Shown here: piece after piece, positions 155 to 33,350 of the stretch
Layout: the number at the start of each line of letters is the position of its first letter
Numbering within the stretch: position 1 is the stretch's first letter
Origin: Gemmatimonadota bacterium
GTDB taxonomy: Bacteria; Latescibacterota; UBA2968
Assembly (NCBI GenBank): GCA_009838845.1
Contig: VXRD01000032.1
Span: 1 to 33,439 of the forward strand
Length of the DNA: 33,439 bases
Direction of reading: 5' to 3'
Notes under the pieces: generated by a model
What the model saw: the letters and a program-made list of their open reading frames with translations, nothing else
Database searches by the model: none
Told to the model about the DNA's origin: nothing
Program-made: the position numbers and the translations under genes

Positions 155-853
155 ATGAGATTCATTGTAGCAGCGTTATTAAGTCTGGCCCTTACAGGGC
201 CGGGAGTGGCAGAAGTGAACGGCACCTGGTCTGTTGGGGTGACCGGGCAATACGACATGCCGCTATTCAAATTGAACCAGTGGTTTCCCTCGGGAGGCAT
301 TGACATCGGGGGAACAATCTCACGCATCAACAACCCGACCTGGACATTTGAACTGGACGCGCGGTATGCCAAATACGGCTCGGGAGAACTGGAAAACCGC
401 AGATTCCTCTGGTCCGTTGACCTGCAGGAATACGAAAGCCCCAACGCCAGTTCGGAAATGACCTGGTTTACAGTAACCGCCAACTATCTTTACCACTTCA
501 ACGGCGGAGGTGAAAAACTGAACACCGGGGGTGGCGCGCCCTACTTCGTCATCGGATCGGGCTTTTACCACTACAACAACGAAATTAGCGGATTAATTTA
601 TCCCGGTCAGAGCGGCACCCTGGACACCAATTTGACACAGCGTCCCGAATCAGATGTTCGCACGGCTCTGGGCGTAAACGCCGGTGTGGGCGTCGAATAC
701 TTCGCCTCTCAGAATTTTGCGTTTGACCTTCGGGCACAATACCACGTCATCTGGGGCCACGTGCGCCCCCTCGAAGCCTGGGGCTTACAAGAGGCATTCC
801 CATTTCACAAACTCAACATAGGTGTTCGGCTCAAGTTGTATTTCCCCAAATAA
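155..853 (+). CDS. Small outer-membrane beta-barrel protein, function unknown
   Basis: A 232-residue protein with a typical Sec signal peptide (residues 1 to about 19, cleavage likely after Gly-Val-Ala). The mature part alternates aromatic and glycine residues as in an OmpA/OmpW-like 8-stranded barrel. Examples are the segments around residues 85-120 (YLYHFNGGG, FVIGSGFYHYNN) and the closing strand LNIGVRLKLYF near the C-terminus. The ATG at 155 follows AAGGAGG at 141-147, which fixes the start. It lies 15 bases before a TonB-dependent receptor gene with the same strand and an equally strong ribosome binding site, so it is probably the first gene of the 155-7297 operon. I see no enzyme motif. 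A porin, adhesin or assembly-accessory barrel are all possible. Confidence 0.75.
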   Translation: MRFIVAALLSLALTGPGVAEVNGTWSVGVTGQYDMPLFKLNQWFPSGGIDIGGTISRINNPTWTFELDARYAKYGSGELENRRFLWSVDLQEYESPNASSEMTWFTVTANYLYHFNGGGEKLNTGGGAPYFVIGSGFYHYNNEISGLIYPGQSGTLDTNLTQRPESDVRTALGVNAGVGVEYFASQNFAFDLRAQYHVIWGHVRPLEAWGLQEAFPFHKLNIGVRLKLYFPK

Positions 854-868
854 TAACGGAGGTTCAGC

Positions 869-3800
869 ATGCGATTTAGCATTCGTTTGGGCTGTCTCCT
901 GATCCTGGTCGGCGCGCTATGCGTCTTTCATCCGGGCGATGGGATGGCAGCTACAACAGGAAAAGTCACCGGTGTGGTGAAAGATGCCCAGGGTGAGGCA
1001 CTACCCGGCGTCAACGTCGTAGTAAAAGGCACGCGGCGCGGCGCTGTAACCGATACAGACGGCTATTTTTTAATATTAGCTGTCGATCCGGGCGTACATG
1101 AAGTAGAAGCATCCCTGGTCGGCTACCGCACCGAAACCATACAAAACGTGCTGGTACAGGTCGAATTGACCACCACAGTAAATATCGTACTCCAGGAAGC
1201 AGCCGTAGAACTCGGCGAACTGGTCGTCATTGCCGAGCGACCTGCCGTGGAACCCGATAAAACCGTGAGTCGCTATATTGTCGGCGTCGAACAGGTCGAA
1301 CAGGTTCCCCTTGCGCGAAACGCGGCAGAGGTCATCGAATTGCAACCCGGCGTATCCCTGGACGGTGCCATGCGCATCCGCGCAAGCCATACCGCCTCGG
1401 TAACCAATGGCACCAATGAAGTCTTTGTGGAAATCGACGGCATTCGCCTGTCCAACGACGATGGCGTAGCCGAAAACAACACAGCTTCACAGGTCAACAG
1501 CCTGGCGCGCGGGGCATTGCAAGAAGTCGCCGTCGTAACCGGCGGCATGAACGCCGAATACGGCAATGCACAGGGCGGCGTAATCAGCCTGGTGAGCCGC
1601 GAAGCCAAAGAGCGATACGGTGGCCTGGGCGAATACCGCCTGACCCTGCCGGGACTAAAGCACTGGGGTGCGAATGTCTATAACAGTCCGCTGTTAGAAG
1701 GCAAAACCCCGGACACCGGCAATCCCAATATAGATTCAACGCCTTCGGATTACGACAGTGCATTGGGACATTTTTTGGAAGGCAACGTCTCCGGACCGAT
1801 TAACCCACAACTCGGATTCTTCCTCAGCACCTATACAGATCGGCAGGCATCCGTTTTTCCGGGTCCCTCCAATCACGCGCCCTTTAACCTGAACACATCG
1901 GCCAATGCGACCTATCGGCCGGGCGACAAGTACAAAGTTAAGCTCGGCACCACATGGGTGTACAAAGACGGGTTCAACAACGGCTCAACCAGTGTGGTAC
2001 GCGGTCCGGGTGGTGCAACCACGGGCGTGCCGCCGGGCGGCGTGCGGGGCATCTCGGAAAGCGGGCGCAACCTCTACCTGCCCGCAGGGTATAGCTCCTC
2101 GGGCAAGTCGCCGCGCACCGATCAGGTATTTTACGGCGTCTTGACACACACCATATCGCCCAAAACATTTTACGAAGTCCGCGTATCTTTCCAGAGCACA
2201 TCCCTCGATACCAGCGACGTACCGTCACAGACAACCGATATCGTCCGCGGTGCAAACGGATTTTACGGCACGCGAGATATCCACGCCTTTAGCTGGGCGC
2301 AGCGCACGCGCATCCTGCTAAAAGGCGATTTGTCCAGTCAGGTAACGCGGGGACACTTTGTAAAAGCTGGCTTTGAAATCATCCGCAACAGCATCGAACA
2401 GCAAGATGTGGTCTATAACACAACCCGCGAACGCAACATCCGCTTGCTGGGCAAGGGCGACCCCATCGTGGGCATGGAACCTTTTAATCCCGCGACCTAC
2501 GCGGCCTATATTCAGGACAAAATGGAATTTGAGGGCCTGATCGTCAATCTGGGTGTGCGCTACGAAGTCCTCGCGCCCGGCGAATCCTTTGGCCGCGCCA
2601 TGGACCACGTCACCTGGAACCACTACAACTCGCTGACGCGCTGGCGAAACGTACCCATCGTAGATTCGCCCACGCAGACGGCCATCAGCCCGCGCCTGGG
2701 TATTTCACACCCCATCACAGATCGTTCCACCATCCGATTTTTCACCGGACGCTTCCACCAGTTCATCGGTCTGCAAAGCCTTTACAACCGCACCTGGAGA
2801 GCAACTGGACCGGACAAAGACCTGAATGGCAACGGACAAATCGACCAGATGGAAATTTTCAACGCCCTGGTCTATCCGCTGGCGGGCGAATTTGGCAATG
2901 TCCACATGAAACCCGAACGCACGACCAACTTTGAGGTCGGCTTCGACTACAACTTCTACGGCGATTACGTCCTGGGCCTGACGGCCTTTTACAAAGACCA
3001 GGAAGGCACGCTATCCAGCGGTGGATCGGACTTCTTCATCGACGAACCGGTATTTGGTTTCAACTCTTCATATACCCACGCATTCTTCAATCGCCGCTTT
3101 GCCACATCTCGCGGATTTGAGCTGTCCTTCCAGAAAAAATTCAGCCAGATGACAGCCCTGTATGTGGCTTACAACGTCAACTGGGCCAAAGCGCACCGCG
3201 GCGGCAAATCATCCTGGGAATGGTTTATCGCTCCCACGGCTCAATATGTGAACAGCGACAAATTCTTTGCCGGCGTCACCGTGCAAGCCGACGGCCAGGA
3301 AGTGCCCCGCGCACCAACGGCCGAAGAACGGAGGGCATTCGCAGAGAAAGCCAATGAAATTGCCCTGAAATACAAAGCCAAAGCAGATGTGATGGAACCA
3401 AAGAGCAACGCCTTCTGGGAACAGCCAGTCCTCGTCGAAGACGGACTGTACTCCTTCAATATCGCCAACTACAGCATTCCCACCTTAGATGGCGGCCTGG
3501 ACAGGCGCAACTTTGCCAGCGTGCAATTCCTCTTCTCTGCACCGCCGGATTTCCACATTACTGCTCTGGCCGGATTCCGCGCGACCATGGTCTGGCAGAT
3601 GCACACCAGGGGTGCATTCTGGTACACGCCACCCACGGGACCCAGGGAACGGCGCAACGGCCCGCCCTCCACACTGACAGATGTCAGCTTTGAAAAAGAC
3701 TTTGGACTGGGGCAGACGGGTACAGCCACGACATTCCTGGAAGTCCGCAATCTCTTTGGGCAGCGCGACGACACGAGCACTGGCTTCCGCTGGATCCAGT

Positions 3801-3931
3801 ACGGCCTCCAGAAACCGCCGCCCGGAGACAGCAAATTCGATACTTTCGGCGATATTTCCGAACTGACCCGCTACAACGGCGGGCTGGGCAGACCCCGAAC
3901 CATCGTGGCCGGGGCGCGGTTTAAGTTCTAA
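869..3931 (+). CDS. TonB-dependent receptor with carboxypeptidase-regulatory-like domain
   Basis: A 1020-residue outer-membrane receptor for TonB-energised uptake of an unknown substrate. Residues 1-28 are a signal peptide. Residues about 30-108 form a CarboxypepD_reg-like beta-sandwich (GKVTGVVKDAQGEALPGVNV, then DTDGYF and SLVGY). Residues about 130-245 are the plug, ending in the typical GGMNAEYGNAQGGVISLV. The rest is a beta-barrel that ends in phenylalanine (ARFKF), as expected for BAM recognition. The extension before the plug is the SusC-like arrangement, but the next gene is not SusD. Instead it encodes a sorting-domain protein, followed by a PorV-type barrel. GGAGG at 858-862 precedes the ATG. 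A paralogue with the same architecture is encoded at 33350-30141. Confidence 0.93.
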   Translation: MRFSIRLGCLLILVGALCVFHPGDGMAATTGKVTGVVKDAQGEALPGVNVVVKGTRRGAVTDTDGYFLILAVDPGVHEVEASLVGYRTETIQNVLVQVELTTTVNIVLQEAAVELGELVVIAERPAVEPDKTVSRYIVGVEQVEQVPLARNAAEVIELQPGVSLDGAMRIRASHTASVTNGTNEVFVEIDGIRLSNDDGVAENNTASQVNSLARGALQEVAVVTGGMNAEYGNAQGGVISLVSREAKERYGGLGEYRLTLPGLKHWGANVYNSPLLEGKTPDTGNPNIDSTPSDYDSALGHFLEGNVSGPINPQLGFFLSTYTDRQASVFPGPSNHAPFNLNTSANATYRPGDKYKVKLGTTWVYKDGFNNGSTSVVRGPGGATTGVPPGGVRGISESGRNLYLPAGYSSSGKSPRTDQVFYGVLTHTISPKTFYEVRVSFQSTSLDTSDVPSQTTDIVRGANGFYGTRDIHAFSWAQRTRILLKGDLSSQVTRGHFVKAGFEIIRNSIEQQDVVYNTTRERNIRLLGKGDPIVGMEPFNPATYAAYIQDKMEFEGLIVNLGVRYEVLAPGESFGRAMDHVTWNHYNSLTRWRNVPIVDSPTQTAISPRLGISHPITDRSTIRFFTGRFHQFIGLQSLYNRTWRATGPDKDLNGNGQIDQMEIFNALVYPLAGEFGNVHMKPERTTNFEVGFDYNFYGDYVLGLTAFYKDQEGTLSSGGSDFFIDEPVFGFNSSYTHAFFNRRFATSRGFELSFQKKFSQMTALYVAYNVNWAKAHRGGKSSWEWFIAPTAQYVNSDKFFAGVTVQADGQEVPRAPTAEERRAFAEKANEIALKYKAKADVMEPKSNAFWEQPVLVEDGLYSFNIANYSIPTLDGGLDRRNFASVQFLFSAPPDFHITALAGFRATMVWQMHTRGAFWYTPPTGPRERRNGPPSTLTDVSFEKDFGLGQTGTATTFLEVRNLFGQRDDTSTGFRWIQYGLQKPPPGDSKFDTFGDISELTRYNGGLGRPRTIVAGARFKF

Positions 3932-3952: not shown

Positions 3953-6295
3953 ATGTATCTGAAAAACTTGAAAAGACAATGGTTGCCGGGTCTGATGGTA
4001 TTGTGCCTCATGTCAATCGGCACAATAGATTCACAAGCGCAGGTGGTCTATAGCGCGTCGCGGCACATGACCCGGTCGCTGGTATGGCTCTCGTTTACCA
4101 ACTCCGGTACTTCGAGCATGCACTATCAGGTAACCCCATCTCGGGTAATGATGCGCATGTCCTACCCGGGCGAATTATACTCATTGTACGCCCTGTTGGG
4201 CACCGAAGAATTTGTGGAATATTGGGGCGACAAAGCATGGGGATCGTCCGCACAAAAGGGCTTTACAAACATGCACTCGGCCGGTGAAGGCGTGCTGGTA
4301 TTGACCAATGTGGGCGGTGAAAAATACGTCTCAGTCACAGGCCCGCGCACACCCACCGAAGACGTAATACCGATGAATTACGACATCGCCAACTCTAAAG
4401 AATCCTCGTGGGGCATCCAGTCCATTGTGCCCAATCGCGGTGTGGGTCCAGGCACGGTAAAATCCAACTGGTGGCAAGGTGCTTCGCCCCAATCCGCTGA
4501 CCCGGCCAATTTGAGACCCTACGAAATTCACAACTTCGATTACGGCATTTATCCGCCCGTACAAAATGCAGGCGAAGAAATCCATATCACGCAATGGCAG
4601 ACAAAGCACAACGTGGTCGTAACGCGCAAAGCCCATGCGTGGAGCCATCAGGACTTCGACGACTTTTTCATCCTGGAACTCGAGTTTGAAAATCGGGGCG
4701 GACAACAACTCGACAACACCTACTTTGGTGTCATGAATTCCATGTATGTCAATAGTGCTGGCACATCTTTCCGCTGGGGTCATGAAGGCGGCCTGGTCAC
4801 CTATCGCCGCAGTCAGGCGCTGGACGACCACTATCGCTATAGCGAAGCATCCAACTTCGAAAACAATCCCTTAAGCGGATTGTCACCTGCGGATTTCCAG
4901 GGCAAATACATCATGTACCAGTGGGATGGCAACTCCCCGTCCAGCTTTGAAGAAGACACGGGCGATCCCTACTTCTCGGACCTGGAAGCGCGGGGCTTCC
5001 CGGGCAGCAGGAACAGGCCCGAGGGCATGCCCATTGCACCGGCCTATCAGTTTATGGCACCGCTCGCATTTCGCAATGCCGGGGCGAGTCACACATTCAA
5101 CGCCGCAGACGCAGCGGAAGGCTTTGTCGATCCACAGGGCGAACCCCTGTCGCACTGGTACGAAGTATTCGGCCGCCGCAACATCGACGACCCCACGCGG
5201 GGCGCGCTGAGCATGGCCGACCAGTACGACTTTTTCACCTCGCCCACAATGGACAACCCGCCCTCTGAACAAATGCAGTGGGAAGACCTGATCTTTGGTC
5301 CCTACAGCCTGGCACCCGGACAAAAAGCCAAAATCGTGCTGGCCTACGGCTTTGGATCATCAGCCGAATTTGAGATCAACGCCGAGACGGGTTATGCCAA
5401 CGACATTACCAAGTGGTCGTGGAACGTGGGCGATATTGGTCCAGACGCCCGCAAATCGCTTTTGGCCAAAGGCGAAGAAGCCATGCTGCGGCATCTGAAC
5501 CACGCGCAATTTACCTACGACAACGAGTACCAGATACCCAACGCACCCCCGGATGTGGATTTCTTCCAGGGGAGCAATGCACAGGCCAAAATTACCCTGA
5601 CGTGGTCAGATGCCGCTGAAAAAGCCATCAACCCCGAATACGGCCAGGCCGATGTAGTCGCCTATCGGGTCTATCGCTCGACCTGGCAGGAAACCGGACC
5701 GTGGGATCTGGTGGGCACGGTTCCAGCCGGTAGTAGCCAGGGCGGCACGTACACCTGGATAGATGAAAATTCGCTGGCCGGATTCCAATTTGCCTACAAT
5801 GTGCGCTCTGTTGCCAGCCCCAAATCGTCCTGGTCCGAAGGCTCCAAAACCCTGGACGATTTGCCCGAGACCGTGCGCAAGCACCTCACGGAAAACGGAT
5901 TGGAGAGCGGATGGTCAGCGGCCGAACAGCGCATGATCGTTCCGGGCAGCCCAATTTTGGCCGCCAATGACGCCGCCGACAATATGGAGAGGCCGGTAGT
6001 CGTGGTGCCCAATCCGTTTAGTCTGGCGCAAGCCCAATCCAATTATCAGGGCACGCTCAAACTGCGCTTTGTCGGGGTACCGCACCAGGCAAAAATCTCC
6101 ATTTTTACGGTTTCGGGAGATCTCGTTGCCGAAATCAACCACAACGATCCAACGGCCGGGGAAGCGCAGTGGCTCTTAAAAGATCGCTTCCTCACCGGTG
6201 AAGCCACCTCGTCTGCGTACTTCTTCGTGGTGGAGTCGCTCGTGCCTGCCAGTCGCGGTCGCAAGACCAAGGGCGCGTTCATAATCAACCGTTAA
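3953..6295 (+). CDS. Secreted multidomain protein with FN3-like module and type IX-like C-terminal sorting domain
   Basis: A 780-residue exported protein. Residues 1-30 form a signal peptide ending in SQAQ. The large central region is rich in aromatics and beta strands and shows no enzymatic motif I recognise. Around residues 530-630 there is a fibronectin-III-like module (VVAYRVYRSTW, GPWDLVGTV, FAYNVRSV). From residue 682 to the end lies a sorting-type beta domain: VVVVPNPF, then LRFVGVP, ISIFTVSGDLV, AYFFVVES and the terminal KGAFIINR. This matches the layout of type IX secretion C-terminal domains and FlgD-Ig-like modules. AGGAGG at 3938-3943 supports the start. It sits 21 bases after the receptor and 18 before a PorV/PorQ gene. 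The protein at 30108-27991 has the same domain plan. Confidence 0.85.
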   Translation: MYLKNLKRQWLPGLMVLCLMSIGTIDSQAQVVYSASRHMTRSLVWLSFTNSGTSSMHYQVTPSRVMMRMSYPGELYSLYALLGTEEFVEYWGDKAWGSSAQKGFTNMHSAGEGVLVLTNVGGEKYVSVTGPRTPTEDVIPMNYDIANSKESSWGIQSIVPNRGVGPGTVKSNWWQGASPQSADPANLRPYEIHNFDYGIYPPVQNAGEEIHITQWQTKHNVVVTRKAHAWSHQDFDDFFILELEFENRGGQQLDNTYFGVMNSMYVNSAGTSFRWGHEGGLVTYRRSQALDDHYRYSEASNFENNPLSGLSPADFQGKYIMYQWDGNSPSSFEEDTGDPYFSDLEARGFPGSRNRPEGMPIAPAYQFMAPLAFRNAGASHTFNAADAAEGFVDPQGEPLSHWYEVFGRRNIDDPTRGALSMADQYDFFTSPTMDNPPSEQMQWEDLIFGPYSLAPGQKAKIVLAYGFGSSAEFEINAETGYANDITKWSWNVGDIGPDARKSLLAKGEEAMLRHLNHAQFTYDNEYQIPNAPPDVDFFQGSNAQAKITLTWSDAAEKAINPEYGQADVVAYRVYRSTWQETGPWDLVGTVPAGSSQGGTYTWIDENSLAGFQFAYNVRSVASPKSSWSEGSKTLDDLPETVRKHLTENGLESGWSAAEQRMIVPGSPILAANDAADNMERPVVVVPNPFSLAQAQSNYQGTLKLRFVGVPHQAKISIFTVSGDLVAEINHNDPTAGEAQWLLKDRFLTGEATSSAYFFVVESLVPASRGRKTKGAFIINR

Positions 6296-6313
6296 AACAC
6301 AAGGATTGATACT

Positions 6314-7297
6314 ATGAAAAATACGATGTCTGTAGTGCTGATCGTTTTGATCGCGCTCGCCCTATCGGCTCCGGCCTCGGCGCAGGCACTCTTCCCAGAA
6401 GCCGAAGAAGTCCTGAATCCAGAGGGCCGCAGCAAGATCAAGCCATCCACATTCAATTTTCTGAAAGTGACCAACAATGCCCGAGTCGCGGGCATGGGCG
6501 ATGCTTTTACCGCGGTATCCGACGGGATAGACGGCATGATCTGGAATCCGGCCGGTCTGACCAAAGTGAACAAGTTGGGATACGCTTTTGGCTATACCCA
6601 ATGGCTGGTCGAATCGTCATTTGTCACCGGATCCCTCGCCTACAATACCGGACAATGGGGCGTGCTGGGTGTATCATTTGTGAACTTTACCCTGCCCGAC
6701 ATACCCGAAACGACTACCATGGAACCAGACGGCACGGGTGCTATGGTGAACTCGGGCGACCTCGCCTTAGGCCTGGTTTACGCCTATCAACTGACCGACA
6801 AGCTCTCGGCAGCAGCAGCCCTGCGCTTTGTCCAATCCGCGCTGGGACCAGAGACACTCAGCGCAGTCTCTGTGAATGTCAGCACCTTGATGTACACGGG
6901 CTTTCAAAGCCTGCGCATTGGCATGAACATGAAAAACCTGGGCGGAGAGCAGGAAATCGTGAGCGAAAAATCGGAAATGCCCCTGGTATTCCACACCGGG
7001 ATAGCCATGGAATTGTACGGCAACCTCGGCGACCCCGTATCCCTGACCGGCTCGTTTGAAGGCGCTTTCTTCACCGACCGGGAGCAACGCTGGAACCTGG
7101 GCGGTGAACTCTGGATACAGAACCTCATCGCGCTTCGAGCTGGTTATAAGATCAAATACGACGTGGAAACCTGGAGTATTGGCGGTGGTCTCAAGGGGAA
7201 ATTCGGCGGGCGACACATCGCCTTAGACGTGTCGTATAGCAATCTTGGCGATTTGTTCGACCCGCCCCTGCGCCTGAATCTCTCAGGTTCACTGTAG
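6314..7297 (+). CDS. PorV/PorQ family outer-membrane protein
   Basis: A 327-residue protein with a signal peptide (1-24, ending PASAQ). The PorV/PorQ signature follows: FLKVTNNARVAGMGDAFTAV around residues 50-70, then an Asn-Pro-Ala turn (WNPAGL), followed by regular amphipathic strands typical of a FadL-like 14-stranded barrel. In studied type IX systems PorV collects cargo carrying the C-terminal sorting domain and delivers it to the PorU sortase. PorQ belongs to the same family. The immediate upstream gene encodes exactly such a cargo-type protein, so a shuttle role is a reasonable inference. The start follows AAGGA at 6301-6305. The downstream region has hairpins, so the operon probably ends or attenuates here. 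Confidence 0.88.
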   Translation: MKNTMSVVLIVLIALALSAPASAQALFPEAEEVLNPEGRSKIKPSTFNFLKVTNNARVAGMGDAFTAVSDGIDGMIWNPAGLTKVNKLGYAFGYTQWLVESSFVTGSLAYNTGQWGVLGVSFVNFTLPDIPETTTMEPDGTGAMVNSGDLALGLVYAYQLTDKLSAAAALRFVQSALGPETLSAVSVNVSTLMYTGFQSLRIGMNMKNLGGEQEIVSEKSEMPLVFHTGIAMELYGNLGDPVSLTGSFEGAFFTDREQRWNLGGELWIQNLIALRAGYKIKYDVETWSIGGGLKGKFGGRHIALDVSYSNLGDLFDPPLRLNLSGSL

Positions 7298-7423: not shown

Positions 7424-9403
7424 TTGGCCGAAGCACTGCAATCAGACCCAACAATTGAACATGCAAGAGGCATAACACTCCGCTCGGTTGCCCTGGGCAT
7501 TGGAATCGTAATCTTCATCAACCTGTGGGTGACCTATGCCGAGACCGTGGTAAAAACCTCTCGCCTGAACCTGAGCGTATTTCAAATCACGCTCCTCGCC
7601 ATCTTCATCATCCTGATCGGGGTAGTCAATCCCCTGATCAAATCTATAAACCGCCGCTACGCCTTTGCCCCCGCCGAATTGCTATCCGTTGTCGCCATTG
7701 GCATCGTCGGCTGCGTCGTGCCCACATCCGGCATCACCGGATTTTTGATCGGAGTAATTTCCACCCCCTTTTATTTTGCCACGCCCGAAAACGGATGGGC
7801 CGAGTATTATCACCCCAACCTCAACTCGTGGGTCGTGCCCACCAATCAGGAAGCTGTACGCGCCTTTTACGAGGGCTTATTGCCCGGCAGCGCTATCCCC
7901 TATCGCGTGTGGCTGGCACCACTCGCGTGGTGGGGCAGTCTGGTGGTAGCCGTATTTGCCGTTTCCGCCACACTGATGATTATCTTGCGAAAACAATGGG
8001 TAGAATACGAAAAACTCGCCTACCCCATCGCCGCCGTACCCATTGAAATGTCGCAAGATGCCCTCTCTGCGCGTCTTCTCCCCGCATTCATGCGCGGTCC
8101 CATGTTCTGGATTGCAGCGGCTATACCATTTTTGATTTTTGTCTGGCACTCCCTGTCATGGGCATACCCGCTCCTGCCCAGCATCGGCATCCTCCCGCAC
8201 GGAGGATATTTCCGCTTCACGCGCTATTCGCCGGGCATGTACATTCAACCCATGCAATTTTTGACCATCGGATTTGCGTACTTTGCCAATACACAGGTAC
8301 TATTCTCAGTCTGGTTTTTCTTTTTACTCCACGTCCTGGAAGGGGGTATTTTTAACCGCCTGGGCTATCAGATCGAACGGTCAACCGACTCATTCAGCGC
8401 AGACCCGCCCACCGAAGCCTGGCAGTGTTTTGGCGCACTCGCCTGTCTCGTCGTGTGGCGATTGTGGGTCGCGCGGCGGCATCTGCGCGATGTCGTCCTC
8501 AAAGCACTCGACAAAAATCATCCGGTAGATGACCGCGAAGAAATACTTTCCTACCGGTCGGCAGTTTTAATTTTGTCGTGTAGCCTCATCTACGTCTTAT
8601 TCTGGCTCCTGCAAATAGGGATGGACCTGACCACCGCATTGATTTTTATGTCCGGCGTCGCCGTCATCTACATCGGCATCGCGCGCGTGGTATCAGAAGC
8701 CGGCGTCGTGTATTCGGGCGCCACCGTAACACCGCAGGCATTTGTCATGGACCTGCGCGGCACCCACGTCATATCCGGAAGCAGCATGACAGCCATCGCA
8801 TTGTCCTATTCCCTCATCGATTATATGCGCGGGCTATTCACCCCGGCGCTGGCGCAATCGATCAAACTGGGCGACCTGATCCGCGGCAACCGCCGTCTGT
8901 TATTCTATTGCGTGGGCATTGGCGTACTCGCCGGATTTGTCTCTTCTGTATGGCTCATGCTCTATCTGGGCTATACGCATGGCGCGTACAATTTCCCGCG
9001 CTTCCCCTTCTTCAGCGGCGACCCAAAAGGCATCTACGGATCTACCCTTACAATGATGCGAACGCCCAAAGCACCCGACCCAAACCGCATCATCTTTTTC
9101 GCCATTGGCGCGGGTGCAATGGCCCTGTTGACATTTTTGAGATACCGATTTTCCTGGTGGCCCATCAACCCCATCGGCCTGACCATTTCCGCTGCGGATA
9201 ACACGGCATCCCTGGTCATGCCCGTATTCATCGCCTGGGTATGCAAAGCCTCTTTGCTCCGCATCGGCGGCGTAAACCTCTACCGCAAAGCCATGCCCCT
9301 ATTTCTGGGCCTGCTCGTCGGCTATACCGCTGGCGTCGCCTGGTCATTTCTCGTCGATGCGATCTGGTGGCCCGGTCAAGGGCACTCGGTTCACTGGTGG
9401 TAA
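7424..9403 (+). CDS. Polytopic membrane protein, DUF6785-like (copy 1)
   Basis: A 659-residue integral membrane protein with about 14 predicted helices, spread from residue 20 (SVALGIGIVIFINLWVTY) to the last segment near residue 630. Conserved-looking loops include YFATPENGW, GYQIERSTDSFSADPPTEA, VSEAGVVYSGATVTPQ and FPRFPFFSGDPKGIYG. I associate it with the DUF6785/DUF6784 type of uncharacterised transporter-like proteins, from memory only. The start codon is TTG at 7424, behind AGGAGA at 7413-7418. The start is backed by N-terminal alignment with the paralogue encoded immediately downstream. Acidic, aromatic and serine residues in the SEAG and STDSFSADPP loops could line a substrate path. 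Substrate and direction of transport are unknown. Confidence 0.8.
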   Translation: MAEALQSDPTIEHARGITLRSVALGIGIVIFINLWVTYAETVVKTSRLNLSVFQITLLAIFIILIGVVNPLIKSINRRYAFAPAELLSVVAIGIVGCVVPTSGITGFLIGVISTPFYFATPENGWAEYYHPNLNSWVVPTNQEAVRAFYEGLLPGSAIPYRVWLAPLAWWGSLVVAVFAVSATLMIILRKQWVEYEKLAYPIAAVPIEMSQDALSARLLPAFMRGPMFWIAAAIPFLIFVWHSLSWAYPLLPSIGILPHGGYFRFTRYSPGMYIQPMQFLTIGFAYFANTQVLFSVWFFFLLHVLEGGIFNRLGYQIERSTDSFSADPPTEAWQCFGALACLVVWRLWVARRHLRDVVLKALDKNHPVDDREEILSYRSAVLILSCSLIYVLFWLLQIGMDLTTALIFMSGVAVIYIGIARVVSEAGVVYSGATVTPQAFVMDLRGTHVISGSSMTAIALSYSLIDYMRGLFTPALAQSIKLGDLIRGNRRLLFYCVGIGVLAGFVSSVWLMLYLGYTHGAYNFPRFPFFSGDPKGIYGSTLTMMRTPKAPDPNRIIFFAIGAGAMALLTFLRYRFSWWPINPIGLTISAADNTASLVMPVFIAWVCKASLLRIGGVNLYRKAMPLFLGLLVGYTAGVAWSFLVDAIWWPGQGHSVHWW

Positions 9404-9413
9404 AGGCACTTAA

Positions 9414-11399
9414 ATGGCAATACAAACAGAATTTGCACATGAAACCGATCCCTTACAGGAAAAAGGTCTGACAGTCCGTTCAGTGGGTATTGCGCTGGGC
9501 GCAGTGGTCTTCATCAACCTGTGGGTAACCTATGCCGAAACCGTGGTGCATGCATCCAGACTAAACCTGAGCTTTTTTCAGCTCACATTGATGGCCGTAT
9601 TTGTCTTGCTGGTCGCAGCCGTCAACCCGATCTTGAAACTCCTGGGATCGCACCACGCGTTTTCGCCCTCAGAACTGCTGGCAATTGCGGCAATCGGCAT
9701 GGTGGGGTGCGTGGTACCCGCTTCGGGCGTAACCGGATTTCTCATCGGCGTCATTTCCACGCCGATTTATTTTGCCACACCCGAAAATCGATGGGGTGAA
9801 TTCTATCATCCCAATCTCGACTCGTGGATCGTACCCATAGACCCCGAAGCCCTGCGCATGTTCTACGAAGGCCTGCCACCCGGCGCGTCCATGCCCTGGG
9901 AAGTGTGGCTGATGCCCCTGCTGTGGTGGGCGAGCTTTATCGTCGCAGTATTCGCGCTCTCAGCCAGCATGATGGTCATCTTGCGCAAACAGTGGGCAGA
10001 ACACGAAAAACTGATCTATCCCCTCGTGGCCGTACCCCTGGAAATGGCTCAAGATTCACGGTCAAAACAACTGTTGCCGGGATTTATGCGGGGCAAGCTA
10101 TTCTGGATCATGGCCGCAATACCCTTTTTGTTATTCCTGTGGAATTCCCTATCCTGGTTTTACCCGCTCATGCCCGGAATTGGGATCTTTCCCCACGCCG
10201 GAAAGTTTAATTTTACGCGGTATTCTCCCCACGTCTATCTGGAACCCCTGAACCTGTTCACCATCGGCTTTGCGTACTTTGCCAACACACAGGTATTGTT
10301 TTCCGTCTGGTTTTTCTTCTTATTACACGTAGTAGAAGGCGGCATATTCAACCGCCTGGGCTACCAGATAGCCAAATCAACCGACTCGTTCAGCGCCGAT
10401 CCGCCCACCGAAGCCTATCAGTGCTTTGGTGCGCTGGCGTGCCTGGTCGTATGGCGATTGTGGGTCGCGCGGTGGCATTTGCGAGACGTCTTCCTCAAAG
10501 CATTTAGAAAGGCGTATCCCGCCGACGATTCCCGGGAAGTTCTGGCCTACCGCACAGTGGTCTTTGTATTTTTGGTGAGCCTGTCTTTTGTACTCTTCTG
10601 GCTCTGCCGCATCGGCATGGACATAACAACCGCACTCGTCTTTCTATGTGCCCTATCCATAATTTATATTGGTCTGGCGCGGGTCGTATCAGAAGCCGGG
10701 ATGGTATATTCGGGCGCCACCGTAACACCGCAGGCATTTGTCATGGACATGCGCGGCACACAAGTCATGTCTGCGGGCAGTTTGACGGGCATTGCCCTGT
10801 CGTATTCCATTGTCGATTACATGCGGGGGCTATTCACGCCCGGCGTGGCGCAATCGATCAAAATGGGCGAACTCATCCAGGGCAATCGCCGCGCATTGTT
10901 ATTCTGGGCTGGCATAAGCGTTTTGCTGGGACTGGCTGCATCCGTATTTTACACCCTGCACCTGGGCTATTCTCATGGGGCGTACAACTTCCCGCGCTTC
11001 CCCTTTTTCAGCGGTGACCCAAAAGGCATCTACGGATCGACGCTAACCATGATGCACACGCCCAAAGCACCCGACGGCGAGCGCATGGTCTTCTTCGCAA
11101 TCGGAGCGGGCCTGATGGCATTTTTGACGTTCTTGCGCTACCGGTTCCCGGGCTGGCCCCTGCATCCCATCGGACTCACCTTATCGGCAGCCGACAACAC
11201 CGGTCACCTCGTCATGCCCGTCTTTATCGCCTGGGCGTGCAAATCCGTAATCATGGCCGTCGGCGGTGTAAACCTCTACCGCCGCTCCAAACCCGCGTTT
11301 CTCGGCCTCCTCGTGGGCTATACAGCCGGAGTAGTGCTATCATTCCTCATCGACGCGCTGTGGTGGCCAGGAGAAGGGCATCTGGTGCACTACTGGTAG
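9414..11399 (+). CDS. Polytopic membrane protein, DUF6785-like (copy 2, tandem paralogue)
   Basis: A 661-residue protein collinear with the preceding gene product over its whole length. Roughly two thirds or more of positions look identical by eye, including GFAYFANTQVLFSVWFFFLL and both ends (IxFINLWVTYAETVV near the start, GHxVHxW at the end). It has about 14 membrane helices. The ATG at 9414 lies ten bases after the previous stop. Only a weak AAAGG (9403-9408) precedes it, so translation may be coupled. Divergence is highest in the N-terminal 15 residues and in loops such as the SKQLLP region. The pair suggests a recent tandem duplication, with either a heteromeric complex or two related substrates. 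Function unknown. Confidence 0.8.
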   Translation: MAIQTEFAHETDPLQEKGLTVRSVGIALGAVVFINLWVTYAETVVHASRLNLSFFQLTLMAVFVLLVAAVNPILKLLGSHHAFSPSELLAIAAIGMVGCVVPASGVTGFLIGVISTPIYFATPENRWGEFYHPNLDSWIVPIDPEALRMFYEGLPPGASMPWEVWLMPLLWWASFIVAVFALSASMMVILRKQWAEHEKLIYPLVAVPLEMAQDSRSKQLLPGFMRGKLFWIMAAIPFLLFLWNSLSWFYPLMPGIGIFPHAGKFNFTRYSPHVYLEPLNLFTIGFAYFANTQVLFSVWFFFLLHVVEGGIFNRLGYQIAKSTDSFSADPPTEAYQCFGALACLVVWRLWVARWHLRDVFLKAFRKAYPADDSREVLAYRTVVFVFLVSLSFVLFWLCRIGMDITTALVFLCALSIIYIGLARVVSEAGMVYSGATVTPQAFVMDMRGTQVMSAGSLTGIALSYSIVDYMRGLFTPGVAQSIKMGELIQGNRRALLFWAGISVLLGLAASVFYTLHLGYSHGAYNFPRFPFFSGDPKGIYGSTLTMMHTPKAPDGERMVFFAIGAGLMAFLTFLRYRFPGWPLHPIGLTLSAADNTGHLVMPVFIAWACKSVIMAVGGVNLYRRSKPAFLGLLVGYTAGVVLSFLIDALWWPGEGHLVHYW

Positions 11400-26077: not shown

Positions 26078-26097
26078 ACTATTTAGAGGAGGAAGAT

Positions 26098-26892: not shown

Positions 26893-27960
26893 CTACTTAT
26901 AGCTAATACCGAGCGTTACGAGATGCACATAGTTCAACCGCCCGAAATCCACGAGCGCGTAGTCCACCCTCAGACCCAGTTGTCCGGTACTGTGCCGAAC
27001 ACCTGCCCCAATCGTCAACCCCTCCTCATCGTAGTTGTACCTGTATCCAGCCCGTAAAATCCCCATATTATTATAAGTGTACTCCGCACCAAAATTCAAT
27101 TTTTCCCGACCATCGTTCGGGTGTACAAACTCGCCCACGAGAGTCATGAAATGCGGATCTTCTTCATCCTCGAACAAATCAATAGCTGCACCCAGTGAAA
27201 ATGACATAGGCATGCGGACATTGACCGGAGGCGTCTGGATGCGTTCGTCGTATTCGGAGAACTGCGTATCCGGACCGAAATTCCGACCGACCATTGCAAT
27301 CCGCAAACTTTTGATCCCCGTGTAATACACAGTGCCGATATCCAGCGCCCAGTTGGCTGTTTTGGCCCCCTGCACATCGTCTAACTGTTCTTCCATATAG
27401 CGCAGATTACCACCAATTTGCAACCGATCTGTCACTTTCCTGCCATAAGTCAGGCCAATGGAGAGATTGCCGCCGCTAAATGTGCCTTCGTCCAGATTGA
27501 TGGATACGTTGCCAGTGCGCCTGCCCGCAGCATCCAGAACTTCAATATTTTCTGTGCGGTACATGGTGCCGTAATCCAGAGCGGTCGCGTTGATCCCCAC
27601 ATAGCCCCATTGGTCCAGGTTTTTGACAACACTGCCCACATTGTATCCGATATCGGCAATCCAGTTGATTCTACCCACAAAAACATCTAAGTCTTCAACA
27701 TCTGTTGTAGAAGCCGGATTGTTGAATGCAAAACTGGCATCGCCGTGGCTAATGGCGGTAGCAACACCACCCATTGCAGCGATGCGGGCGCTGGTCGGAA
27801 TTTTCAGAAATTGCCAGCCGGACATGCCAACGCGTTCAAAAGGCGCTGGCGAAATGCCCAGACCAAATTCCTGTTCGCCGTAGGTCGTCTGCCCGCTGGC
27901 CCTGTGCGGCAGGAAGAACACGGCCAATATTGCGCATAAGATGTAGAAATGGCGATTCAT
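26893..27960 (-). CDS. PorV/PorQ family outer-membrane protein (second copy)
   Basis: A 355-residue protein from the ATG at 27960, which follows GGAGG eight bases upstream. A TTG at 27975 would place the ribosome binding site inside the gene. Residues 1-24 are a signal peptide ending HRASGQ. The family signature follows: WQFLKIPTSARIAAMGGVATAI (about 48-69) and an Asn-Asn-Pro-Ala-Ser turn. Later strands carry the spaced aromatic pattern of a FadL-like barrel (LRAGYRYNYDEEGLTIGAGVRH, VTLGISYK). Compared with the first copy it is about 30 residues longer, mainly at the N-terminus and in loops. It is the last gene of the minus-strand set and follows a sorting-domain protein gene. Confidence 0.88.
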   Translation of the reverse strand: MNRHFYILCAILAVFFLPHRASGQTTYGEQEFGLGISPAPFERVGMSGWQFLKIPTSARIAAMGGVATAISHGDASFAFNNPASTTDVEDLDVFVGRINWIADIGYNVGSVVKNLDQWGYVGINATALDYGTMYRTENIEVLDAAGRRTGNVSINLDEGTFSGGNLSIGLTYGRKVTDRLQIGGNLRYMEEQLDDVQGAKTANWALDIGTVYYTGIKSLRIAMVGRNFGPDTQFSEYDERIQTPPVNVRMPMSFSLGAAIDLFEDEEDPHFMTLVGEFVHPNDGREKLNFGAEYTYNNMGILRAGYRYNYDEEGLTIGAGVRHSTGQLGLRVDYALVDFGRLNYVHLVTLGISYK

Positions 27961-27990
27961 TAGTCTGTCCTCCAATTATCCGTAACAGGG

Positions 27991-30108
27991 TTATTTGATG
28001 ACGACGAATTTGCCCATAGCAGATTCGCCTTCATGTCCGGGCACTTCAGAAGTTATCTGATAAATATAAAGCCCTGGCATCACATTGTGGAAAAACCGCG
28101 TGAGCATATAATCGTTATCCGTGGTAGATCCCCAGGCTTCTTCGCCGAATCCATCGTCGTGCTGGATGGTGCGAATCAAATCTCCCGCCAGATTGTAGAT
28201 GCGAATAGTACATTGCGACGGCACATTCACAAATGTCAACCGCTTTGCCTGCCCGGGATCGGGGTGTCCACTGACCTGGCGGAAGGGATTGGGCACCACG
28301 CGCACATCTGCAAAATCATTTGAGGGTGCTCGCTTCGACGTGATCGAATCGTAGGTATAAGCCGTCATGCCGCTTTCCAATCCCTGCGTATCAAAACTGG
28401 TCACGCCATAGCGCAGTGGAATGCCGGGATCGGTTTCAAGCTGGAAAACCACCCGCCCGTCCTGAATGTTCTCCTGGCCTTTGTTGATGGTGGCCCGCAA
28501 CTCCCAGGGACCTTCGATGCCGACGGGGGACGAATACACCTTGTAGCCTGCAAAATCGGCTTCGCCCGTGAGCGGATCCACATAATTGCTCGGAACGGGT
28601 ATCCACCGGAGTTCGACGCCGGACTTGAACGACCCGCCTTCCTCGGATTTAAAAATCTCCGCTTCCAGTTCATCACCCAAAAGCATCTTGGGCGGATTGC
28701 CCACGGTAGGTGGAGGAACAGCAGTTGGCGTGTAAAAACCCGTCGCGTTCCTGGTTTCGATCAATTCTATTGCCGCGTCCCAGTTCTTGCGAAATTCCTT
28801 GATAGAAGCGTGTTCATTACTCGCCCCTTCCACCTCACTTGCAAAGTCCATGTCGATCAGTCTCGTGGCCGCTTCGCCGCCCAGCATGGCGAGGTTGCGG
28901 TCCATTTCCCCGGCACACATGATACGGGTAAATGTGATCGAGTCTCCAGGGGCCAGATTGTACGGTCCGATGCCCATAGCATAGACCGGCCACCGTTCGT
29001 ATATGCCACCATCTGAGGTCGTTGGATCCTGTGCGGCTGCTCGATAGCTCATTTTCGACTGGGAAAAGGCGAACGGACTGGGCATATCCGAAAATCTATC
29101 GAGGTTTAACACATTAGGACGACCTCCTCCCCACACCCATTTTGCGTTTTCCGACTCCGGAGCCGCCGGATGTACGCCAGTGGGGGAAAGGCTCCAGTCG
29201 TAATTGGTGATTGAGTGGTGTACCCTGGACTCGCCGAACGCATTTGGCGGCACATCCACAAATCCGTGTCCGACGACCTGGGGAGAATAGAGCTGATAGT
29301 CGATTGATCCCTGGCTCTTGATATTGCCCGGATCTCCGACATCTCCCGTGACATTACCCGGTGCGATGTCGTAAGTGACTGCCTGCTCGGTATTGATCGG
29401 AATGGAGTTGTCATCGTAGAAAACAAAAACCCCTCGTTTTTCATCCCAGATATACTCGGTATCATACTGGGTTTTCAACTCCCCAACGCGGCCCTGCCGC
29501 GTGACCTGCACCGTAAAGCTATGAATGAAGAACATATTGCGAAAAGGGGCGAAATCGTCATTGATAATCGTATATTCCGTAATGACGAAGTCGTCGTATT
29601 TGGGAATGCTCCAGACCATACTTCGGGACCTGAGGATATACTTCAGGTTGTCCGCTTCGGTTCCAGGGGGCCATCCGGTATGGTTCGAAATCAGCCCCCC
29701 CTCCATAACCTCTTCCGGAAAATGGATACCCCTTTCGACAAAATTGTAATTCTTAATAACCCTCGTGGGTTCGCCGATGCTGACCCAGGGAGGCTGGTAC
29801 TGATTCCCATCAAACCCATGCACGAAGGCAGTGTCGTTCCGCACCGCCCGCACCGAGCCTGTGGTCCAGGAACCCGCACCATTCAAAGAATTTTTGAGAC
29901 TCCCCTGATAACCGGGATACGAGATCTGTCCGCATCCTGCAATACTGCCCGAAACCGGGATACCCGCTTCATAGGATTCCATCCACATTTTCGCCCGCGT
30001 CAGGGCCTCGTTATTCACATTCTGTGCCCGCACTGCGGACGCGGCAACCGCCAACCCGAGCAGTGAGGTCAACAGTACCCATCTAAACCGCCTGAAATAT
30101 GAGCGCAT
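27991..30108 (-). CDS. Secreted multidomain protein with type IX-like C-terminal sorting domain (second copy)
   Basis: A 705-residue exported protein with a signal peptide (1-29, ending AVRAQ). The N-terminal half contains repeated beta-rich segments (MVWSIPKYDDFVITEYTIIN, FFIHSFTVQVTRQG) and an FN3-like module around residues 510-590 (FAGYKVYSSPVGIEGPWELR, GIPLRYGVTSFDTQGLESG). From residue 602 a sorting-type domain follows: VRVVPNPF, LTFVNVPSQCTIRIYNLAGD, GLYIYQITS and the terminal MGKFVVIK. The last segment agrees with the type IX C-terminal domain pattern. AGGAGAGG precedes the ATG. The gene lies 32 bases after the receptor gene and 30 before the PorV gene. It is collinear in plan with the 780-residue protein of the first set. 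Confidence 0.85.
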   Translation of the reverse strand: MRSYFRRFRWVLLTSLLGLAVAASAVRAQNVNNEALTRAKMWMESYEAGIPVSGSIAGCGQISYPGYQGSLKNSLNGAGSWTTGSVRAVRNDTAFVHGFDGNQYQPPWVSIGEPTRVIKNYNFVERGIHFPEEVMEGGLISNHTGWPPGTEADNLKYILRSRSMVWSIPKYDDFVITEYTIINDDFAPFRNMFFIHSFTVQVTRQGRVGELKTQYDTEYIWDEKRGVFVFYDDNSIPINTEQAVTYDIAPGNVTGDVGDPGNIKSQGSIDYQLYSPQVVGHGFVDVPPNAFGESRVHHSITNYDWSLSPTGVHPAAPESENAKWVWGGGRPNVLNLDRFSDMPSPFAFSQSKMSYRAAAQDPTTSDGGIYERWPVYAMGIGPYNLAPGDSITFTRIMCAGEMDRNLAMLGGEAATRLIDMDFASEVEGASNEHASIKEFRKNWDAAIELIETRNATGFYTPTAVPPPTVGNPPKMLLGDELEAEIFKSEEGGSFKSGVELRWIPVPSNYVDPLTGEADFAGYKVYSSPVGIEGPWELRATINKGQENIQDGRVVFQLETDPGIPLRYGVTSFDTQGLESGMTAYTYDSITSKRAPSNDFADVRVVPNPFRQVSGHPDPGQAKRLTFVNVPSQCTIRIYNLAGDLIRTIQHDDGFGEEAWGSTTDNDYMLTRFFHNVMPGLYIYQITSEVPGHEGESAMGKFVVIK

Positions 30109-30140: not shown

Positions 30141-33100
30141 CTACCACCTCACCTGAACGCCAAATATCACCTCGCGCGGCATCTGCCGCTGGTTGTACCA
30201 ACGCCAGACATCGTCCTCTTCCTCCCGGAAATCGCCAGTGCCATACACGACAAATGGCAGCCTGCCGTTCTCGTGGTATTGCTGCAAATTGTTGCCCGTT
30301 GGGAGACGCAGTTGTTTCTGATTAAAGAGATTGATCACCGTGACATTGATTTCCGTTCGCGCGCCCGGAATAATATTGTCAAATCCCTTCGAGACCATCA
30401 TGTTGGTATTCCACATGGGTTTCCACCGCATGTTCAACGGCTCAGTAGATGGATCGCCCGGCGAGTGGTAGGTGTATTTGAAGCCCTGATTCCAGGTGGA
30501 ATGCAGGTTCACATTCCAATCACCCAGAGGTCTCCAACCGCCCAAAACAGGTCCGAAATTCACCGGCGTAAACACCGTAGCCGTCAATTTGGCACTGTTC
30601 CGGGGGTTCCAGTACGCGTTATCTCTGCCAGACACCCCCTTATCCCTATTATTGGCACCGTGACGGCTGTCCGGACGCGCCTTCTGGCCACCCGGCTGAA
30701 CGCGATAGACATTCCGCAGTCCATAGATACCGGTATTCGAGTAAGATAAATTGTAGTGGAACTTGAGATGGGCATACTGTTGGAAGCGGCTATTCATCGT
30801 TATTTCCAGCCCGCGCACATCCTGGAAAAACATATTGCCGTTAACCACCAGACTCCCACTCTTGCCCGGTCCCCTGGACCCCAGGCCGTTAAAGTCGGGG
30901 AACAGGCGGTGGCCCGTCCCGGTATATGTCCCGTAATCGGCGAGAAAACTTTCATCATTCTTAAATCCAGCGGCTGTCAGGTTCTTGCCATCCTTGTAAT
31001 ACAGGGTCACGTCCAGATTGAGCAGAGCGGCGATGTTCTGGTCAAAGCCGACCTCATACTGGATCATTTTTTCGAACTCCAGGCCGGGATTTCCGGCGCC
31101 AGCCCAGTGGGTATAAGAATATCCATGGTTCAGTCCGTAATCCGCCGGCAGCGGTGTGAGGATGGGATCAGTCTCGGGATAGGGCCTCAGTTGCATGAAA
31201 GGCGTATTGGTCATCTTCTGCCACGAAGGCCGCTGATTGAAATGCCCATACATAAAGTGCAGCACGGTCTTATCTGTAATGGGGTGGGAAATGCCGATCC
31301 TGGGCGAAATCGCCCACTGCGTGGGCGTGTGTTCTGCAAACTCATCAGTACTGGAAATATTCTTATACCCATAGGGATCGCCGATGGATATCTCGCTCTG
31401 TTTGACATTGCCCGGCGTATCCTCATCGATTCGCAGCGGGTCGAAGACATCATCACTGACGTATGCATTCACATTGTACATATCCACCCGCAGCCCGGCG
31501 TTTACGATCATGCCCATGGTCTCGATCTTATCCTGAATATAGATCGCACCCTCGTAGGGATTGGTATCCCGGGCAATCGGATCTGTGACCCAGGCTGTGC
31601 TGATATATCCGAAGTGGAAGTACCGGTCGAAAAACTGGTAAGATCCGTATAGCCCGGCCTTCAGCTGATGCACTTCATCTACCTGCTTGGTAAAATCGGC
31701 CTTGATGGTATAATTATAGGCCTTGGCGTAATCCTGAGCGTGGTCGCCCGGGTAGTTGAGGCCCCAACCGGGAATTCCAGAGATTCTGCCAACGCCGTGA
31801 AATGGCAGGCCCCTGGTCAGGCGCTTGTTTTCCTCCTCCACCAGCACTTCGTTCCAGTCAAAGCCCTTCGAATAGGCGGCGTGGCTGGTCTTCCACAAAT
31901 TGTCCCGCCTGTAATTGGCTTCGCGGAAATACCAGAAGTAGCTCAAATTGACATCCAGAAATGTTCTGGGATCAAAGATATGGGTCAACTTTGCCTGTCC
32001 GCTCCACATCCGCACGTATTCGGGCGCTCGGGGGGTCGGTCTCGGGGTGCCCTGAGCCACAAAGGGGAAAAATTTCCAGCTATTGGAGGGATACGCAATA
32101 TGCGCACCGCTGCGATGCTGCCACAGACCGTTGTCTTCGCTGGAACCGTACAGCGTGCGGAACTGGTCCGTATTGTTAAACCCGCCGTGCATCCCCTGAA
32201 GTTTGACCCTCGAATTCTGAGTGACATCAAAAGTCAAGGAACTCTGTAAGTTCCATTCCGGGTTGTAATTCAAGGCGGAAGGATACTTGGGAACACCCTT
32301 TTGGTACCTGCCCGAAGCCATAAAAGAAGCCCTCTTGGTCAGGGGACCGTAAAGCGTGCCTTCATATCCGTGCTGCGTGCGTTTGTCGTACTCTTTTAAA
32401 TCCTGTATCCAGGGCGCAGTCAGGTAGTTCATAATCCAGTGCTGCGCCAGGGCCGTATTCACGCCATCGCGATTATCGCGAAGACCCTTCTTATACTCGT
32501 CTGCCGCAGTGACGTGGCCCGTCCCGAACCAGCCGGGTGGGGGGTGATTATTCCACCAGTCCGGATTGCTCATCACGCGGTTTTCGTAGCGCTCAGGGCC
32601 GTAAATATGCCCGCCCCAGTGATAGATGCCAGCGGGGCGCATTTTGTAATCGAGCGTACTGTGGACCCTGGTCCTCGACGATTTGGTCACCATATTGATC
32701 ACAGCGCCATTGGCGCGGCCGTATTCGGCATTGTACCCTCCCGACAGGACCTCCAGTTCCTGCACTGTGGAAGTGTTGATACCCGTCCAGTTGGAGTTGG
32801 ACGCACCATCGCGCAACTCCATACCATCGACATAATAGGAAACATCCAGACCGAACCCACCGCGGATGCCGCCGTTGTAGTTGACGCCCTGCTGCGTATC
32901 TACGGCTTGCTTGATATTGGCGACAAAGCTCCGGTCGAGTTCGATAGAAGACATGACGGCTTTGCTGCCGGTCAAATCGACTTCGACGGGTGGCCGTTCG
33001 GCCACAACAACCATTTCCTCGGCAGCGAGGACCTCTTCGCGGAGGCTAAAGTTCAGCGTTGAGGTCTGGTCGATTTTCACGCGAACCTCGGTCTGCGTGA

Positions 33101-33350
33101 CATCGTGGTATCCAACCATAGATGCCTTGACGGTATGCAGGCCCGGCGGAACGGCCAGAATGAAAAACTGTCCGTCCGCATCGGTAGTAGCACCCACCAG
33201 AATGCCCTCTACCTGGACGACGACATTTGCTCCTGGCAAAACCTGCCCGGCTGCATCTTTGACGGTCCCGGTAATTTTACCGGTTGTGCCGGCATATACC
33301 ACCGATGCCGAACACATAATAACGAGAAACGCTATTGCAATCTTTTTCAT
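30141..33350 (-). CDS. TonB-dependent receptor with carboxypeptidase-regulatory-like domain (second copy)
   Basis: A 1069-residue receptor. Residues 1-20 form the signal peptide (SVVYA). Residues 21-104 are a CarboxypepD_reg-like domain (GKITGTVKDAAGQVLPGANV, DADGQFFILAV, SMVGY). Residues about 125-225 are the plug, ending LSGGYNAEYGRANGAVINMV. The barrel ends in tryptophan (VIFGVQVRW). It differs from the first copy in loop lengths and in the plug, for example SYYVDGMELRDGASNSNW against EVFVEIDGIRLSNDDG, which suggests a different ligand. The ATG is preceded by AGGAGG (33358-33363). Its leader is strikingly AT-rich. Confidence 0.93.
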   Translation of the reverse strand: MKKIAIAFLVIMCSASVVYAGTTGKITGTVKDAAGQVLPGANVVVQVEGILVGATTDADGQFFILAVPPGLHTVKASMVGYHDVTQTEVRVKIDQTSTLNFSLREEVLAAEEMVVVAERPPVEVDLTGSKAVMSSIELDRSFVANIKQAVDTQQGVNYNGGIRGGFGLDVSYYVDGMELRDGASNSNWTGINTSTVQELEVLSGGYNAEYGRANGAVINMVTKSSRTRVHSTLDYKMRPAGIYHWGGHIYGPERYENRVMSNPDWWNNHPPPGWFGTGHVTAADEYKKGLRDNRDGVNTALAQHWIMNYLTAPWIQDLKEYDKRTQHGYEGTLYGPLTKRASFMASGRYQKGVPKYPSALNYNPEWNLQSSLTFDVTQNSRVKLQGMHGGFNNTDQFRTLYGSSEDNGLWQHRSGAHIAYPSNSWKFFPFVAQGTPRPTPRAPEYVRMWSGQAKLTHIFDPRTFLDVNLSYFWYFREANYRRDNLWKTSHAAYSKGFDWNEVLVEEENKRLTRGLPFHGVGRISGIPGWGLNYPGDHAQDYAKAYNYTIKADFTKQVDEVHQLKAGLYGSYQFFDRYFHFGYISTAWVTDPIARDTNPYEGAIYIQDKIETMGMIVNAGLRVDMYNVNAYVSDDVFDPLRIDEDTPGNVKQSEISIGDPYGYKNISSTDEFAEHTPTQWAISPRIGISHPITDKTVLHFMYGHFNQRPSWQKMTNTPFMQLRPYPETDPILTPLPADYGLNHGYSYTHWAGAGNPGLEFEKMIQYEVGFDQNIAALLNLDVTLYYKDGKNLTAAGFKNDESFLADYGTYTGTGHRLFPDFNGLGSRGPGKSGSLVVNGNMFFQDVRGLEITMNSRFQQYAHLKFHYNLSYSNTGIYGLRNVYRVQPGGQKARPDSRHGANNRDKGVSGRDNAYWNPRNSAKLTATVFTPVNFGPVLGGWRPLGDWNVNLHSTWNQGFKYTYHSPGDPSTEPLNMRWKPMWNTNMMVSKGFDNIIPGARTEINVTVINLFNQKQLRLPTGNNLQQYHENGRLPFVVYGTGDFREEEDDVWRWYNQRQMPREVIFGVQVRW

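Follow-up and report, generated by a model that had tools for sequence, protein, structure and literature searches.

Our analysis of a 33,439-nucleotide window (contig VXRD01000032.1 of assembly GCA_009838845.1, from an uncultured Gemmatimonadota bacterium that GTDB places in the Latescibacterota) shows two gene cassettes in which a pair of genes sits directly downstream of a TonB-dependent receptor (TBDR). The first gene of the pair encodes a secreted protein, called the cargo here, that ends in a C-terminal sorting domain (CTD) like those of the type IX secretion system (T9SS); the second encodes an outer membrane barrel of the PorV/PorQ family. We favour, with moderate confidence and from sequence comparison, the idea that such a pair is the surface module of a TonB uptake cassette, in which the cargo would cross the outer membrane through SprA on its own barrel and would be held by its CTD beside the receptor, in a role like that of SusD. 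The barrel probably both carries the cargo and holds it on the cell surface. A sequence-only reading of this DNA had singled out the pairs; it did not mention the receptor upstream of each, which is the main clue to their function.

Cassette A lies on the forward strand and has four genes. These encode an outer-membrane beta-barrel protein (OMP) of about 232 aa (155..853; PF13505 OMP_b-brl, E 2.3e-7), a TBDR with a CarboxypepD_reg-like domain and a plug (869..3931; PF13715 2.1e-18, PF13620 2.6e-17, PF07715 25.8 bits), the 780 aa cargo A with a signal peptide, a beta-rich ectodomain, an FN3-like domain and the CTD (3953..6295), and a 327 aa PorV/PorQ-family barrel, the proposed dedicated carrier and anchor (6314..7297). 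Cassette B lies on the reverse strand, belongs to a class without the OMP gene, and encodes a TBDR of 1069 aa (30141..33350; PF13620 3.5e-21, PF07715 30.3 bits), a 705 aa secreted cargo with a CTD that is of the same family as cargo A along its length (27991..30108; 475.9 bits), and a 360 aa PorV/PorQ-family barrel (26893..27975). The sequence-only reading had claimed that each sorting-domain gene is followed within 18 to 30 bases by a PorV/PorQ paralogue, and this holds: the gap is 18 nt in A, and in B it is 30 nt from the likelier internal ATG (15 nt from a TTG start), and the barrels score 163.1 (A) and 169.5 bits (B) on the PorV/PorQ family model NF033709, whose curated cut-off is 90 bits.

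The genome (5.75 Mb in 172 contigs, 97.8% complete, with the window as its contig C32) contains 18 such cassettes, which rules out the notion that the pair is an isolated curiosity. Reading of the neighbourhoods shows a constant order of TBDR, cargo (694-1037 aa) and PorV/PorQ-family barrel, with -11 to 58 nt between the cargo and barrel genes and an OMP gene of about 235 aa at the head of 11 of the 18; in the eighteenth (L044) the receptor is found at the start of another contig (L183), where it scores 638 bits on the cassette receptor profile. Twenty-three PorV-family genes exceed the NF033709 cut-off, and 18 of these are directly downstream of a homologous cargo gene, an adjacency for which about 0.09 cases are expected by chance, so chance is excluded as an explanation for the pairing. 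The 18 cassette receptors form a subfamily among the 35 plug-domain matches in the genome; those outside the cassettes that were examined all stay below 140 bits on the cassette receptor profile, with no PorV nearby.

The cassette is not peculiar to this genome. A scan for related loci seeded with six closer cargos gave 76 loci (the named relatives include Candidatus Latescibacterota metagenome-assembled genomes, or MAGs), which come from Latescibacterota, Neomarinimicrobiota, Rhodothermales, Ignavibacteria, Calditrichaeota, KSB1 and one Bacteroidetes MAG, and all 64 genomes of the phylum that were examined contain cargo-family and PorV-family genes. When our own and the related loci are taken together, a PorV gene lies within 400 nt behind 87 of the 94 cargo genes that have enough downstream sequence (88 with the overlapping L125), at a median gap of 16 nt, and a TBDR precedes 84 of 96 cargo genes. 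Two of the relatives are single-contig chromosomes (OX638329 and OY282377), so the pattern is not explained by binning errors. In the Neomarinimicrobiota loci L139, L141, L143, L144, L148 and L150 a second cargo paralogue without its own barrel lies downstream of the cassette, in L144 as two near-identical tandem copies, and L139 and L141 have a protein of about 330 aa with an ordinary type A tail between the OMP and the receptor.

Genes of the T9SS translocon are present in the genome. The sequence-only reading had pointed to the core genes of the system as the place to check its idea. Our searches find SprA (2093 aa; TIGR04189 618.7 bits, cut-off 200), a PorU-like sortase of 1894 aa with a C25 peptidase domain and its propeptide (341.6 bits, below the PorU equivalog cut-off of 420) and a general PorV on contig C15, which scores 167 bits with the PorV model vs 81 with the PorQ model. 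Orthologues of this general PorV in other Latescibacterota families directly follow a large, CTD-bearing, PorU-like gene, and a general PorV was found in each genome examined. The type A CTD model TIGR04183 gives 14 matches in the genome, including one cassette cargo (22.5 bits, narrowly below the 23-bit cut-off) and the PorU-like protein; none of the other approximately 12 ordinary type A cargos is directly followed by a PorV, which sets them apart from the cassette cargos (Fisher, 9e-8). Four type A cargos, of about 600 aa each and with near-identical tails, are arranged in tandem on contig C98 (L105:3504-11095).

The cassette barrels are all members of the PorV/PorQ family (all 18 match NF033709) and differ in lineage from the general PorV. 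Neither barrel of the window reaches the T9SS PorV equivalog NF033710 (70.4 bits for A and 45.0 for B, cut-off 250, which this phylum's general PorV at 167 bits does not reach either) or the PorQ equivalog NF033711 (74.2 and 106.1 bits, cut-off 220). The PorQ model beats the PorV model in 11 of the 12 cassette barrels that were scored individually, and the reverse is true of the general PorV. In the barrel tree the general PorVs form one clade (support 100/100) separate from the cassette barrels. A cassette barrel from Rhodothermales clusters with the barrels of cassette B and L032 (100/99), which means that some of the cassette classes, at the least, are older than the phyla. The cassette barrel profile matches PorV of the Flavobacterium johnsoniae translocon (6h3i chain F, E 4.1e-27), and the AF2 model of barrel A (pLDDT 87, pTM 0.80) has as its best structural match 8gl6_F, the PorV of the translocon with bound RemA CTD (TM 0.73). 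No natural fusion of cargo and PorV was seen among the PorV matches listed in the 64 genomes, where the longest open frame is 518 aa. An array of solo PorV-like genes on contigs C3 and C74 (L046, L047), amid repeats of WD40-propeller proteins whose C-termini, as judged by eye, resemble dockerins, branches with the cassette barrels of L031 and L044 and is accompanied by neither cargo nor receptor.

The C-terminus of cargo A has the layout of a T9SS sorting domain, VVVPNPF...LRFVGVP..AKISIFTVSGDLV...W...YFFVVES...KGAFIINR, and its CTD (residues 682-780; 5996..6292) matches that of PorZ (E 0.0021). The PorZ model matches the CTD in 11 of the 18 cargos of this genome; the PorZ equivalog NF052228, whose cut-off of 260 is for the whole protein, gives 16.5 bits with cargo A, from the CTD only. 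TIGR04183 (cut-off 23 bits) has no hit in either window cargo, and 4 of the 18 match it at E up to 0.05; a profile comparison shows homology between the tails of the cassette cargos and the type A tails of this genome (hhalign probability 96.6, E 5.8e-10). No Pfam family was matched by cargo A, and Foldseek with its AF2 model (pLDDT 86.6, pTM 0.89) returned partial matches only, to FN3 pairs, to the PorZ structure 5m11 and, through the sandwich domain of the cargo, to the N-terminal sandwich domains of GH94/GH116 enzymes (TM about 0.2). Because that TM is so low and no sign of a catalytic domain is seen, we reject the cargo as an enzyme. No lipobox was found in any of the 18 cargos or in the 50 cargos compared below, which have ordinary signal peptides instead; the anchoring that SusD obtains from its lipid must thus have another source, and the bond between CTD and barrel is the obvious candidate. 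Ala-Gln occurs near the predicted signal peptide cleavage site in 14 of 18 cargos and 14 of 18 barrels (12% is expected from random stretches of cargo), and resembles the Q-rule, which has been described as confined to Bacteroidetes (PMC5837995).

We infer the following route. The cargo, which has a visible signal peptide, would be exported across the inner membrane by Sec, and its PorZ-like or type A-like CTD would enter the SprA translocon, where the cassette's own barrel would occupy the lateral gate and pick it up. The cargo would not be handed to PorU for cleavage; it would stay bound through its CTD to the cassette barrel, as PorZ does on PorQ, and the barrel would anchor the ectodomain next to the TonB receptor. 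In a physical complex with the receptor the ectodomain might then serve in ligand uptake as a surface ligand-binding or lid subunit, as SusD does for SusC, here without a lipid anchor.

The nearest known arrangement is the PorQ-PorZ pair of Porphyromonas gingivalis, in which PorQ anchors PorZ on the surface (PMC5562754); it is nearest because most cassette barrels score better with PorQ and most cargo CTDs match PorZ. In that pair, as in PorU-PorV, a PorV-family barrel anchors one particular CTD protein, and according to a review such CTDs may be shielded from cleavage by their cognate PorV-like barrels (PMC10202324). PorZ, however, consists of two beta-propellers unlike the cassette ectodomain and serves in A-LPS delivery, and the cassette pair exists in about 18 copies and is coupled to a TonB receptor. 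PG1035-PorP is another known dedicated pair of CTD protein and barrel (PMC9143113). The precedent for a private shuttle is SprB-SprF: in F. johnsoniae 9 of 12 type B cargos have an SprF-like barrel encoded directly downstream (PMC12618676), and such pairs, among them Fjoh_3952-3951, share with the cassettes the barrel gene directly behind the cargo, the multiple paralogous pairs per genome and a proposed anchoring by the barrel. They differ in CTD type (TIGR04131), barrel family (TIGR03519, on which the window barrel scores 16.3 bits, below the cut-off of 90.55) and the lack of a TonB receptor. The type A PorV of F. johnsoniae is a homologous barrel, and the loops predicted to bind cargo are found at the same position in both; in that species a single PorV takes every type A cargo, whereas here a general PorV exists alongside the cassette barrels. 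Finally, SusC/SusD is similar in having, in many copies, a TonB receptor with a CarboxypepD_reg-like domain and a co-encoded outer-surface protein. The cassette cargo, on the other hand, is no lipoprotein and has a T9SS-type CTD and a PorV-family barrel, and the cassette receptor scores 71.9 bits on TIGR04056 (cut-off 368). We reject the cargo as a SusD homologue, as it has neither sequence nor fold similarity to SusD. The sole SusD match found in the genome (PF07980) is directly downstream of a SusC-like receptor on contig C117 (L102:7929-12162). We found no description of a TBDR-cargo-PorV cassette in the open-access papers searched, nor any among them that contains both Latescibacteria and T9SS; as far as those papers show, the novelty is that such pairs have multiplied, across several FCB phyla, as components of cassettes with a TonB receptor.

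How private is each barrel to its cargo? The sequence-only reading proposed a private shuttle for each, and in its strict form, in which each barrel would take only its own cargo through SprA and would be distinct for each of the 18 pairs, we think this rather unlikely. It agrees with the presence of one barrel directly downstream of each cargo in all 18 cassettes, with the matching trees of the paralogues and with the SprB-SprF precedent (PMC12618676); but even among type B pairs cross-talk and a shared orphan shuttle exist (PMC12618676), and some cargos of the present family have no barrel. The CTD and barrel sequences themselves speak to the point. In type A CTDs an almost invariant Lys near the C-terminus contacts PorV in cryo-EM structures, and PorV loops around Asn87 and Phe115 hold the CTD, Phe115 being a CTD contact in F. 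johnsoniae (PMC10994853). Fifteen cassettes keep the Lys at the corresponding place of the CTD (KF or KL), and none of their barrels has the loop motif P.GTG; in the 29 class-1 cassettes the Lys is lost (G[TASML][FL]), and 26 of the 29 barrels carry P.GTG, usually as ETT..P.GTG. In barrel A this motif is in a predicted extracellular loop (6686..6748) that aligns with the PorV loop around Phe115. These classes are clades and hence are not independent events. The match between last CTD strand and PorV loop is visible between classes and not between individual pairs, and because the loop is common to class 1, cross-talk within the class is likely and strict one-to-one specificity is disfavoured. 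It appears likely that barrels are dedicated at the level of the cassette class; one-to-one dedication is uncertain, and a strictly private shuttle is the weaker reading next to class-level dedication combined with anchoring. Of the private-shuttle proposal, the dedicated barrel of each cassette, of a lineage apart from the general PorV, stands, and exclusive service of each barrel to its own cargo is doubtful, with matching features visible only between classes and a few cargos without a barrel. Such an arrangement would be unusual for type A-like cargo, for which the published rule is a single PorV (PMC12618676), but it has precedents in SprB-SprF, PorZ-PorQ and PorU-PorV.

In theory the general PorV could export every cargo, and the cassette barrel could act only later, by anchoring the cargo on the surface or as a structural part of the complex with the receptor. 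The general PorV of each genome examined would be available for this, and the cassette barrels lean toward PorQ, which is an anchor (PMC5562754). On the other hand, class 1 has lost the near-invariant Lys of type A, with G[TASML][FL] in place of K[FL], and the type A model picks up few of the cassette CTDs, which suggests that these are unlike those of the general cargos; we regard this alternative, too, as improbable. Much less likely is a third possibility, that the barrel is a channel of the FadL type through which a small hydrophobic ligand passes, mechanistically unrelated to the cargo and next to it because both serve the same nutrient. PorV does belong to the FadL fold, and FadL, TodX and CymD are among the weaker structural matches of the barrel A model, but the best sequence and fold matches are PorV chains of the T9SS translocon, and the barrel is linked to the CTD protein directly upstream and not to any metabolic gene set. 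Least likely of all is that the cargo's C-terminal domain is a mere FlgD/FN3-like sandwich and the cargo periplasmic or exported otherwise: cargo A lacks a TIGR04183 match, as do most cargos, and GldL/GldM were not detected, but the profile comparison ties the tail to type A tails, 11 of 18 cargos match the PorZ CTD, and the adjacent gene belongs to the PorV family.

The three proteins of the cassette diverge together. For the barrel, the receptor and the cargo body, the distance matrices have correlations of about 0.9 among 17 cassettes of this genome and of 0.90-0.92 among 50 non-redundant cassettes; in the latter set the value for CTD and barrel is 0.78. These correlations support the cassette as a unit of inheritance, and not yet a specific contact between CTD and barrel. 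Several observations weigh against the surface-module interpretation, and they begin here: co-divergence is also expected because the cassette is inherited as a block, and the partial correlation of CTD and PorV given the receptor is 0.29, only a little higher than for other segments of the cargo (0.18 +/- 0.09), so that coevolution of the two beyond shared history is weak and not decisive. Some cargos have no barrel, namely the second cargos of the Neomarinimicrobiota clusters and an extra 910-aa homologue, at L101:7225-9957 on contig C155 of this genome and at L166:6019-8751, in which the TonB receptor-like gene comes after the cargo and not before it (on C155 it is a fragment at the contig end). 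The cargo ectodomain has no confident structural match, and ligand binding is a guess. The motor genes GldL/GldM (PorL/PorM) had no match in the genome, but the same searches matched no control genome either and so are uninformative.

Directly beyond cassette A are two adjoining genes for DUF6785/DUF6784 polytopic membrane proteins, the first (7424..9403, forward strand; PF20581 5.2e-115) a candidate inner-membrane partner and the second (9414..11399, forward strand) also a PF20581 match. The genome has about 49 copies of this family, of which 11 are within 5 kb of a cassette where 2.6 are expected (P 4e-5); this enrichment suggests the import of a class of organic nutrients, with DUF6785 as a possible inner-membrane partner. 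Genes for a MazE-like antitoxin and a MazF/PemK-like toxin (PF04014, PF02452) occupy 26059-26693, between the two cassettes.

If the surface-module interpretation is correct, type IX secretion would serve, beyond the export of enzymes and adhesins, to build TonB nutrient receptors in which the carrier barrel remains as the anchor, and three outer-membrane protein families would be joined in one uptake complex. The principle of the dedicated barrel, known from PorZ-PorQ and SprB-SprF, would then apply to tens of paralogous systems in a single genome, and a function would be suggested for many of the PorV/PorQ-family genes of the FCB phyla. More tentatively, and with somewhat more doubt than belief, we suggest that the cassettes could be a second, lipoprotein-free counterpart of SusCD, in which a T9SS-delivered surface subunit is held by a dedicated PorV/PorQ-type barrel; such a counterpart would be widespread in the FCB phyla and may be the main customised nutrient-capture device of the Latescibacterota.

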